Assembly: GCA_900547395.1 (NCBI GenBank)
Contig: URGP01000002.1
Span: forward strand, 1-64,000
Source: an uncultured Opitutales bacterium
Lineage (GTDB): Bacteria; Verrucomicrobiota; Verrucomicrobiia; Opitutales; Intestinicryptomonadaceae
DNA length: 64,000 nt
Reading direction: 5' to 3'
The position numbers and the translations under genes are program-made. How positions within the stretch are numbered: the stretch's first letter is position 1; every line of letters starts with the position of its first letter. The notes under the pieces were generated by a model. The model saw only the letters and a program-made list of their open reading frames with translations, did no database searches and was not told the origin of the DNA. Shown piece by piece: positions 3 to 58,274 of the stretch.

Positions 3-77
3 CGCTCCCGATACGTCAACATGCAAAACATCTCAAAAGCCGACGCCAAAGAGTTTTTTGGAGGATTTTATGCTTGA
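3..77 (+). CDS. possible 3' end of a gene cut by the window edge
   Basis: The third frame is open from the window edge and ends in TGA at 75-77; its last residues read ISKADAKEFFGGFYA. The codons resemble those of neighbouring genes more than those of frame 1, which is also open (to 93). The product cannot be identified from 24 residues. Its position 61 bases before thiE makes a thiamine-related gene possible, but nothing in the sequence shows it. Confidence 0.3.
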   Translation, partial: RSRYVNMQNISKADAKEFFGGFYA

Positions 78-55388: not shown

Positions 55389-56489
55389 CTATCTTCCGCT
55401 TTTAGTGCGATTGCAGTTTTTACACAACATTTGACAGTTTTCAGGAACTGTTTTTCCACCTTTACTCCAAGGAGTGATATGGTCGGCTTCCATATCCTTT
55501 ATTTCAAAAGTTTTCTTGCAATGCGGGCAAACCCCGTTTTGGCGTTCATACGCGCTTCTTCTCATCGAATCGGAAAAAGCCCGAATATTCAAATGCTTCT
55601 CGTTTCCGTCCAAAAGATATTCGTAAATGCCTTTTTTGTTTGAAACATCATCGTCTTCCATAAGGGCTTTTACGCGCTCTTCAATTTTTGCGGCATTTAA
55701 ATCAGCATATTTATATTTGTTGTATAAAAATCCCCATTCAATGCCTTTCATTTCCTTTCTATAATTATTGAAAATAATCTTTATCCAGCTAATGACGTTT
55801 TGAAAATATTGCCAAAGTTCGCCCGCATTTTCGTCATTTTGATGCAAAGACATATATTTATCTATGGAAATTTTTTCATCGCATATCCATTTGATTGCAG
55901 TTTCTAAAAAATCTTGGCGAATGGGAGATCCCTTTAAATAATCTTTACCCAAATTGTAAGCCGCGCAATTTGTCTTGCTGAAATACCGCTTGGCGTCCGT
56001 AAGCCAAATTCCTGTATGAACGGCATTTAGAATTTCCTGATTTGTCAGGACTTCTCCCGCAATATTTATGATTTTAAACCAGTCAATGACCTCTTCGTCA
56101 GTCCCTTCACAGATATATACCATCAATTTATAATTAAGTATTTTTTCTCTTCTGTCGTCTGTAAGGTTGTGAAAAGAAAGCTCATATCCGTCCCATTTTA
56201 TAGAAAAATCATTTTCCACATATCGGCAAATGCTGATTGTGCGTTGCTGCCCGTCCAAGAGCTCAAAATTGCCGTCTTTGTTTTTAAACCAATACATTAT
56301 GTTAAGAGGAAATCCCTTGCGAATGGTTTGTATTACCTCGTTGCGCTTTTGGTCGTTATAAACAAATTCGCGCTGATATGCAGGGCGTATATTCAACTTT
56401 CCTCCATATCCCCAAACGCCATCTTCCTGATTGTCAATATACCCTTCAACCAAGTCCCTTACCAAAATTTCTTTAAGCTCTATTTTCAT
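55389..56489 (-). CDS. DUF262-HNH nuclease (GmrSD-like) of a methylase-linked defence module
   Basis: 366 residues. The N-terminal DUF262 (ParB/Srx-like NTPase/nuclease fold) shows IRPAYQREFVY near 34-44 and ELLDGQQRT at 76-84. The last 48 residues form an HNH domain: zinc pairs C321/C324 and C356/C359, catalytic D336-H337, N351 and N360. DUF262 with HNH occurs in GmrSD type IV restriction, SspE and BrxU. A methyltransferase gene overlaps it by four bases (ATGA), so the pair looks like modification plus restriction in one operon. DNA cutting and its target are inferences. Confidence 0.85.
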   Translation of the reverse strand: MKIELKEILVRDLVEGYIDNQEDGVWGYGGKLNIRPAYQREFVYNDQKRNEVIQTIRKGFPLNIMYWFKNKDGNFELLDGQQRTISICRYVENDFSIKWDGYELSFHNLTDDRREKILNYKLMVYICEGTDEEVIDWFKIINIAGEVLTNQEILNAVHTGIWLTDAKRYFSKTNCAAYNLGKDYLKGSPIRQDFLETAIKWICDEKISIDKYMSLHQNDENAGELWQYFQNVISWIKIIFNNYRKEMKGIEWGFLYNKYKYADLNAAKIEERVKALMEDDDVSNKKGIYEYLLDGNEKHLNIRAFSDSMRRSAYERQNGVCPHCKKTFEIKDMEADHITPWSKGGKTVPENCQMLCKNCNRTKSGR

Positions 56490-57439
56490 TTTTTACGTCT
56501 CCTAATCAAAATTCTAAAATATGGGTATTTACCATTTATTGATAAATCCTTATCATCATCTCCCTTGCGAAACTTGATAATTTCAAATTGGTCAGGATTG
56601 TACTTATCTAAAAATGTAATAGGAACTCCCATTACTCCGTCATAATCGCAAGGGATATTAGCTGTTTTTGAAACTTCTATTGCATCATAATTATCGTATT
56701 TGGGATATTCCTCTGATGTATAATTTTTATATAAAATAAGATTTTCATGGCGCTTTTTATAATCCAAATTTGTAAACCAACATTTATTTCCATTATTTAC
56801 TGAATATTTTTTCCCATCATCGCCTAAAACAATTAATTTACCTTCATAATCATCTGGAACTAAAAAAGTTTTTACTTTTGGATTTATTCCAAGCCATATT
56901 TTATTTTCTTTTATGTTTTTAAAAATATCCTTATAGGTAATTGCATTTTTATCTCCAATTATTAAAAACTTTTTGCCGTACTCCATAAGTTGCGCAACAT
57001 ATTCCCTGAAAAGCGAAAATGGGGGATTTGTAACAACAATGTCTGCCTGCTTTAAAAGCTCTATACATTCATCGCTTCTGAAATCTCCGTCTCCATTAAA
57101 TTCCCTTATTCCGATTTCATTGGCATCGGGAACTCTATTGCCGTTTTTATCGCCATTATATTCAAGCCATATCGCCTTTTCAACATTGTGTTTGGAAAAC
57201 CAGTCTGCATCTTGATTTTTATAGCAAGTCGAAATCAGTTTTTTTAAACCGAGATACTCAAAGTTGTAGCTAAAATATTTAAAAAAGTTGCTTACGCGCG
57301 GGTCGTCGCAATTACACAAAACAGTTTTGCCATTAAAATGGTTTTTATAATGTTTCAGCTCCTTTTCAATATCTGAAAGTTGCGTATAAAATTCATCTTT
57401 CTTTTGTTTTTTTGCGGAATGTAAAGTTTGGTTTGCCAT
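56486..57439 (-). CDS. EcoRI-family adenine-N6 DNA methyltransferase
   Basis: 317 residues of the M.EcoRI-like group: KKDEFYTQLSDIEKELKHY near 13-31, VLCNCDDPRVSNFFKYF near 40-56 (SAM region), and the catalytic VVTNPPFSLF near 135-144 (NPPF at 138-141), then FLIIGDKNAITYKDIF and the C-terminal IPCDYDGVMGVPITFLDKYN. The recognition site may or may not be GAATTC. It is followed by the DUF262-HNH gene with ATGA overlap. 58 bases upstream the left inverted repeat begins, so its promoter probably lies within the invertible segment. Very AT-rich codons suggest acquisition. Confidence 0.88.
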   Translation of the reverse strand: MANQTLHSAKKQKKDEFYTQLSDIEKELKHYKNHFNGKTVLCNCDDPRVSNFFKYFSYNFEYLGLKKLISTCYKNQDADWFSKHNVEKAIWLEYNGDKNGNRVPDANEIGIREFNGDGDFRSDECIELLKQADIVVTNPPFSLFREYVAQLMEYGKKFLIIGDKNAITYKDIFKNIKENKIWLGINPKVKTFLVPDDYEGKLIVLGDDGKKYSVNNGNKCWFTNLDYKKRHENLILYKNYTSEEYPKYDNYDAIEVSKTANIPCDYDGVMGVPITFLDKYNPDQFEIIKFRKGDDDKDLSINGKYPYFRILIRRRKK

Positions 57440-57497
57440 AAAAAGCGCAAACTTTAACCATTCTTGCTTCCATTTTAGATATTATCCCCAATCGTCA

Positions 57498-57522
57498 AAA
57501 AATAGGAACAGTTTTTTAAACA
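57498..57522 (+). repeat. left inverted repeat of an invertible segment (IRL)
   Basis: 25 bases with core TAGGAACAG followed by six T and AAACA; identical to the reverse complement of 57614-57638. It stops matching on both sides (A497 against G639, C523 against A613). Confidence 0.95.
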
Positions 57523-57613
57523 CACCCAAACCAAATTTTAACCTACAACATCATGTCAAGAAAACATTGAAAAAAACACCACTTTAACCTATTGCATTCA
57601 TTATATTAAAAAA
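57523..57613 (-). promoter_or_regulatory. invertible promoter segment, 91 bp, pointing at the methyltransferase operon
   Basis: On the minus strand it holds TATAAT (57605-57600) and, further on, TTGACA (57559-57554) followed by TAAAAT (57540-57535, spacing 13, shorter than ideal). On the plus strand I find only weak pairs such as TTGAAA with TATTGC. The better promoter hexamers therefore face the methyltransferase-DUF262 operon in the orientation given here. Flipping would turn them toward the invertase gene. Confidence 0.6.
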
Positions 57614-57638
57614 TGTTTAAAAAACTGTTCCTATTTTT
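57614..57638 (-). repeat. right inverted repeat of an invertible segment (IRR)
   Basis: Perfect reverse complement of 57498-57522. It lies 39 bases before the ATG of the serine invertase. Confidence 0.95.
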
Positions 57639-57677
57639 GTACAATATCATAAAATAATGTAAAGAAAAAAAATCAAC

Positions 57678-58274
57678 ATGAAGACATACGCCTACATAAG
57701 AGTAAGCTGCGATAAGCAGTCAACTAAAACCCAAAAATACGAAATAACAAAATATGCCAAAGATAAAAATATTATAATCGACAAGTGGATAGAAGAAACC
57801 ATTAGCGGGACAAAAAAAGTTGAAGACCGCAAACTTGGAAATCTATTAAAAAAAATGGATAAAGGCGACACCTTGATAATTTCGGAAATGTCAAGGCTTA
57901 GCCGCAACTTAATGGGAATTATGGCAATATTAAATTCGTCAATTGAAAAACGAACAAACATTATCGCAATAAAAGAAAACTTCCATTTAAGCGACAACAT
58001 AAATTCAAAAGTGCTTGCTTTTGCCTTTGCCCTTTCGGCGGAAATAGAGCGCAACTTAATTTCTCTGCGCACAAAAGAAGCCATCGCGAGAAAGAAAGCG
58101 GAAGGATGCAAAATAGGACGCCCAAAAGGCGGGCGGTTTTCTAAATTAATAAAAAACATCAATGAAATAAAACAGCTTATCAGCGAAGGCTGTTCCAAAA
58201 GAAAAATCAAAGATATGTTCGGGGTGAGCCGCTCAACCTTATACAACTTTTTAAAAGAACAAATCCAAAACTAA
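57678..58274 (+). CDS. serine DNA invertase/resolvase (Hin/Mpi-like)
   Basis: 198 residues, the size of Hin, Gin and Mpi invertases. The catalytic Ser is S10 in YAYIRVSCDKQ. The arginine-bearing blocks of the active site follow (GDTLIISEMSRLSRN near 63-77), then the E-helix dimer region with FAFALSAEIERNLISLRTKE, and a C-terminal helix-turn-helix (GCSKRKIKDMFGVSRSTLYN, 173-192) that binds the recombination sites. The 25-bp inverted repeats just upstream are its obvious substrate. TACAAT at 57640-57645, outside the segment, may be part of its own orientation-independent promoter. Ends six bases before convergent rsmI. Confidence 0.92.
   Translation: MKTYAYIRVSCDKQSTKTQKYEITKYAKDKNIIIDKWIEETISGTKKVEDRKLGNLLKKMDKGDTLIISEMSRLSRNLMGIMAILNSSIEKRTNIIAIKENFHLSDNINSKVLAFAFALSAEIERNLISLRTKEAIARKKAEGCKIGRPKGGRFSKLIKNINEIKQLISEGCSKRKIKDMFGVSRSTLYNFLKEQIQN

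Follow-up and report, generated by a model that had tools for sequence, protein, structure and literature searches.

A candidate inverton with its own Mpi-like invertase next to a putative Type II restriction-modification operon in an uncultured Opitutales bacterium

In this study, we analyzed a stretch of 64,000 nucleotides (nt) from contig URGP01000002.1 of an uncultured Opitutales bacterium (hereafter referred to as the window), in which a pair of perfect inverted repeats lies between the gene of an Mpi-like serine DNA invertase and a putative Type II restriction-modification (R-M) operon. This element at positions 57498-57638 is very likely a local inverton, because its repeat lies far beyond chance, the adjoining invertase looks intact and four relatives of the invertase come with an equivalent repeat. 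It probably serves as a phase-variation switch, in which flipping of 91 nt by the invertase would change the expression of the R-M operon. The invertase would bind the two 25-nt repeats and flip the segment between them, as suggested by the anatomy and by the relatives; in the orientation as read, a promoter within the segment may point at the methyltransferase-nuclease operon and, once flipped, at the invertase, with weak promoter evidence in both cases. Clonal cells would then differ in having or lacking the whole Type II R-M system, or in how much of it they have. Observed features behind this mechanism are the repeats, the domain families of the genes, the pairing within the operon, the layout in relatives and the absence of the cassette from a close genome; from these, we infer both the flipping of the window copy and a flip-dependent expression of the R-M operon. 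The inverton candidate is real and well-formed; its role as a working module has good comparative support, and its control over the R-M operon moderate support.

The left repeat arm (57498-57522, plus strand, on the methyltransferase side) and the right arm (57614-57638, minus strand, on the invertase side) are each 25 nt long and complementary at 25/25 positions. Together with the presumed invertible segment (57523-57613, 91 nt, intergenic, 27.5% GC), they form an element of 141 nt. A preliminary description of this DNA had reported these perfect repeats and their exact edges, as well as distances of 39 nt from the right arm to the start codon of the invertase (57678) and 58 nt from the left arm to that of the methyltransferase (57439), all of which we confirmed. 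The perfect match ends at both edges, and of the seven positions that follow beyond the outer edge, four still pair (extended arms of 32 nt at 91% match). A chance origin of the repeat was ruled out, as the longest perfect inverted repeat in resampled sequence reached 16 nt (40 versions of the window, 300 versions of the AT-rich island) compared to the 25 nt observed. No further copy was found in the window, allowing up to three mismatches. With near-perfect repeats, a short intergenic segment and a recombinase gene adjoining it, the element has the anatomy of an inverton. The Hin/hix flagellar switch of Salmonella, with a small serine invertase beside a short invertible promoter segment, resembles the candidate inverton in layout and has a different target gene.

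The invertase itself (57678-58274, plus strand, 198 residues) matches the Pfam families Resolvase (103 bits) and HTH_7 (33 bits) over their cut-offs. It further contains S10 and an SRLSR motif, which we take to be the catalytic serine near residue 10 and the arginine-rich motif of small serine recombinases. This is in line with the Hin/Mpi-type serine invertase named in the preliminary description, the enzyme being Mpi-like by its family score given below.

Comparison with related genomes supported a working module. Mpi-like genes were found in 7 of 372 genomes of the window's presumed order (E ≤ 1e-25), at 10 places, eight of which belong to the family of the closest genome available, G581 (5 of its 19 genomes). 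All 10 loci were taken with their flanks and selected neighbour genes were scanned, giving 11 loci with the window. At five of these, the invertase adjoins a full R-M or bacteriophage exclusion (BREX) system, namely the Type II system of the window, an Snf2 helicase with a Type III methyltransferase and a nuclease (L190), a 5-methylcytosine methyltransferase with an NgoFVII-type enzyme (L191), a Type IIG enzyme (L166) and a BREX system (L201). L204 features a fragment resembling a specificity domain and nothing more of an R-M system, and at L203, L206 and L208 no R-M match was found among the genes scanned. A promoter-sized repeat beside the invertase likewise occurs at five of the 11 loci (the window, L190, L191, L202 and L205). 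The repeats of the four relatives measure 20-24 nt with arms 107-134 nt apart and sit directly upstream of the invertase, between it and a divergent neighbour gene, which in two of the four cases (L190 and L191) begins an R-M operon. L166 has long repeats in its specificity region and no promoter-sized repeat.

The strongest comparative point comes from L191, which is located in a genome of the same genus as G581. Here, the two possible starts of the methyltransferase frame (1126 and 1150) lie inside the inverton, and an in silico flip of it, whether with the whole arms or at the shared core, removes every in-frame start ahead of the conserved motif. Consequently, the methyltransferase must go off if this segment flips. 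In the window, the methyltransferase start lies outside the inverton and the frame stays intact after an in silico flip, so that any switch must act on transcription.

Several side observations were made at these loci. The elements of L190, L202 and L205 contain TTTGTAT[CT]TTT on the strand toward the neighbour gene, similar to the -7 element of Bacteroidota, which may mark a Bacteroidota origin of these three switches; this motif is absent from the elements of the window and L191. The genes behind the perfect 21- and 20-nt inverted repeats of L202 (7974-9692) and L205 (569-2140) remained unmatched, and they could represent unknown phase-variable functions. At L201 (5712-14803), the Mpi-like invertase is located upstream of a BREX operon (BrxA, BrxC, PglX), and no clear short repeat was found between the two.

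The presumed target of the inverton consists of two genes on the minus strand. The first (56486-57439) encodes an EcoRI-type adenine methyltransferase of 317 residues with NPPF at residue 138 (Pfam PF13651, 445 bits; PADLOC MTase_II, 422 bits). The second (55389-56489) overlaps its end by 4 nt and encodes a nuclease of 366 residues with the Pfam domains DUF262 (GmrSD_N) and HNH and with DGQQR at residue 79 (PADLOC REase_II, 468 bits). This pairing of methyltransferase and endonuclease genes is what a Type II system requires and fits the methyltransferase plus DUF262-HNH pair already named in the preliminary description; we therefore regard the two genes as a putative Type II R-M system and the nuclease as its putative restriction enzyme. 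Both genes also travel together elsewhere: a nuclease match follows the methyltransferase at 27 of 37 loci on viral contigs (IMG/VR) and lies beside it in six of the nine genomes with a methyltransferase match, eight of which were found among 384 genomes of the class and one more among 79 of a family. This recurrence suggests that the two genes make up a self-contained R-M system. The 37 viral and nine genomic methyltransferase loci, many of which have short flanks, yielded no Mpi-like invertase, and a distant serine recombinase match (25-29% identity) occurs at two of the viral ones. Invertase and inverton therefore seem to have been added to a common R-M type. A methyltransferase of Intestinicryptomonas porci shares 80% identity with that of the window. 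The first 160 residues of the window protein are identical at 158 of 160 positions to P0013 and to P0018, and the later parts of these two proteins diverge strongly from it (8/23 and 6/20 in neighbouring blocks), as if specificity halves had been swapped between lineages.

A number of points weigh against a phase-variable R-M operon in the window, and a first group of them concerns the promoter. The preliminary description had based its on/off switch on TATAAT and TTGACA on the strand toward the methyltransferase. Both hexamers are present on this minus strand (57600-57605 and 57554-57559, respectively), and TATAAT starts 46 nt upstream of TTGACA, so that they do not form one promoter; a single TATAAT/TTGACA promoter was rejected due to this wrong order. 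An invertible element with its own invertase in front of the operon is supported; this promoter argument, as it was put, is not. By matrix score, TTGACA (57554-57559)-18-TTTGGT (57530-57535), at 57530-57559 on the minus strand, ranks first among the internal pairs that face the methyltransferase, with a score of 7.96 (P 0.06, rising to 0.10 if the arms are counted in) and a weak -10 element. The opposite strand, toward the invertase, reaches only 4.13 (P 0.73), as the earlier mention of weak hexamers on this side implied, but the methyltransferase side is also near chance. The polarity toward the methyltransferase is hence as described before, but weak. In addition, the internal pair is outscored by a match outside the inverton, TTGACG (57493-57498)-15-TAAAAT (57472-57477), at 57472-57498 on the minus strand (score 8.81, P 0.02), which overlaps the left arm by one base.

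The underlying promoter model was examined in the upstream regions of 85 genes of the window and the related loci. In favour of the switch, TTGAC[AT] was enriched (14 compared to a mean of 5.3 and a maximum of 13 in 30 resampled sets); TATAAT was mildly so (13 compared to 7.5, maximum 12). Properly spaced pairs were not clearly enriched and add to the points against: TTGAC-16..18-TAnnnT occurred once compared to 0.5, and TTG/TAnnnT pairs 21 times compared to 14.7, with a maximum of 23. A sigma-70-type promoter is thus a fair but unproven model here, as TTGAC[AT] is enriched yet the spaced pairs are not clearly so. The Bacteroidota -7 motif TAnnTTTG showed no enrichment upstream of the same starts (6 compared to a mean of 8.1) and was set aside as promoter type; TAnnTTT occurs in the element of the window only within the arms.

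The match outside the inverton makes a fixed promoter a real rival. According to this explanation, the R-M operon would be driven from just beyond the left arm although the element flips, and the flip would mainly change expression of the invertase, as in a self-regulating recombinase, or only fine-tune the operon. TTGACG-15-TAAAAT would indeed be unaffected, being the top match toward the methyltransferase in both orientations. After a flip, the internal pair would face the invertase, upstream of which the best match in the orientation as read reaches 5.54 (P 0.14). The spacing of TTGACG-15-TAAAAT is below the usual 17 nt, and 15 nt is generally poor for a sigma-70-type promoter. Moreover, at L191 a flip has to affect the methyltransferase itself. 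Taken together, we regard a fixed promoter as an unlikely but serious explanation.

Further points on the same side concern the enzyme, its site and its neighbours. The invertase comes closest to the Mpi master invertase model of NCBIfam (NF009949), with 266.5 bits over nearly its full length (E 1.5e-79), which is 5.5 bits under the curated cut-off of 272; it is therefore named Mpi-like. The window repeat also does not contain the core of the four relatives, where AAACG-NN-CGTTT with a non-palindromic centre is common to L202, L205 and one arm of L190, with one or two bases changed in the second L190 arm and in both arms of L191. At its best, the window repeat is symmetric at 7 of 12 positions and 4 of the inner 7; the corresponding values of the relatives are 7-10 and 5-7. 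A diverged enzyme-site pair would be the likeliest reason for the missing core. A scan of IMG/VR with the repeat pattern for a reversed copy gave 0 matches. An invertase search of IMG/VR gave 17 pattern stretches with no relative among them, and a 14-mer scan of genome contigs only what look like chance matches. The neighbour genes of L202 and L205 gave no Pfam, PADLOC or NCBIfam match, so that the layout is not R-M-specific. In the order of G687, taken as Bacteroidales, such an invertase was found in 13 of 149 genomes at 16 places (E ≤ 1e-60), 12 of which had no R-M match. The other four count in favour of the switch, as a Type IIG-like match lies at most 34 nt from the invertase, with L229 being weak (E 3e-6), and none of 17 control stretches, picked by us from the same or related genomes, gave a match. 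Finally, it could be harmful to a cell to have an entire Type II system switched off.

Missing core and missing reversed copy would also suit a locked relic, in which repeats and invertase are leftovers of a lost recombination. We consider this improbable: the arms are identical at all 25 positions, the invertase and operon genes are open and motif-complete, and full length is retained in database relatives that are 95% and 84% identical to the invertase. Least likely is that the element is no inverton at all, being instead a miniature inverted-repeat transposable element (MITE) with 25-nt ends, which its size and terminal repeats would suit too, or a structured transcript or terminator; a MITE was rejected given the single copy in the window and the lack of a match for the 19-nt repeat core in G581 (up to three mismatches), a known structured RNA was dropped as 57300-57800 gave no Rfam match at gathering scores, and the relatives carry different repeats at the same place beside the invertase.

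The element, for which a phase-variation switch remains our preferred explanation, is part of an AT-rich cassette between mnmA and rsmI (55420-58274, 34% GC compared to 46-48% in the flanks). This cassette is absent from G581, where the flanks nearly adjoin. G581 and the window share mnmA and rsmI proteins that are 98.6% and 95.6% identical, with flank DNA at 94.7% and 89.0%. The G581 junction retains about 31 nt reading NCNRTKSGK-stop, which corresponds to the C-terminus of the nuclease family; P0244 ends in the same nine residues. Based on this remnant of the nuclease 3' end, G581 looks like it lost the cassette, rather than never having had an occupied site. The cassette is therefore dispensable. 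No methyltransferase was found at E ≤ 1e-15 in the 19 genomes of the G581 family, a set without a positive control.

Matches to invertases of this type occur in plasmid and phage records as well. Among 89 plasmid records, 25 were listed and 10 of these examined, of which four have R-M genes near the invertase (L209, L211, L217 and L218). At L209, the R-M operon starts 594 nt from the invertase and begins with a small helix-turn-helix gene, and L211 and L218 encode an identical invertase protein. The two Campylobacter plasmids examined look alike and have no R-M genes beside the invertase, and L214 features a DUF262 gene 4.8 kb away. Seven phage records contained an invertase match. At L166 (7049-8936), L211 and L218, an Mpi-like invertase is combined with a Type IIG/ISP-like enzyme, from which inverted repeats lead to a second specificity-like piece; switching of specificity by inversion is probable there.

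Phase-variable DNA methylation is best known from specificity shuffling in Type I systems and ON/OFF switching in Type III systems. Signs of inversion in Type I systems were found in 13 species (PMC5903667), and R-M systems are reported to be among the targets of DNA inversions in gut Bacteroidales (PMC12632263). Like the hsdS-inverting Type I systems of Streptococcus pneumoniae and Prevotella intermedia, the window element would vary R-M within a clonal population; unlike hsdS inversion, which swaps specificity genes, its segment is intergenic, contains none of the operon's coding sequence and would alter the amount of R-M rather than its specificity. The Type IIG/ISP-like loci (L166, L228, L230, L231 and the Lactococcus plasmids L211 and L218) share the same invertase family adjoining R-M genes, whereas the repeats of L166, L211 and L218 join the enzyme gene to a specificity-like piece and those of the window frame a small intergenic segment. 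In Bacteroides fragilis, Mpi inverts 13 regions, seven of which are polysaccharide promoters (PMC4747536). A related serine invertase, short inverted repeats and a presumed promoter-type on/off switching are in common with this system; in contrast, the window enzyme lies beside its presumed target, which is an R-M operon, and in Verrucomicrobiota. According to a 2026 review (PMC13076061), ON/OFF methyltransferases are common in Type III and have limited representation in Type II; the word "invertible" occurs 0 times in it. In a 2023 paper, invertible promoters controlling methyltransferases appear as a suggestion from its reference 44 (PMC10333322). In the open-access literature, we found no report of an invertible promoter that controls a Type II R-M operon and is accompanied by its own Mpi-type invertase. 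The element would hence be of a known kind, a promoter-type inverton, and what appears new is its own invertase together with a whole Type II R-M operon as target.

A more far-reaching idea, which we put forward tentatively, is a two-way switch, where one orientation drives methyltransferase and nuclease and the other the invertase, as part of a portable invertase-inverton front end shared by defence systems of this lineage. If true, complete restriction would be gained and lost by cells as a single unit, the front end would be shared by Type II and Type III systems, where repeats were found, with a BREX neighbour without repeat, and survival after losing the protecting methyltransferase while the nuclease remains would become directly testable. 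In this context, the compact operon with its own invertase offers a testable case of phase-variable Type II R-M. It raises the question of how a Type II system could be switched off safely, without cutting by leftover nuclease, and, judging by its neighbours in related genomes, the invertase may be a reusable control module for defence systems.
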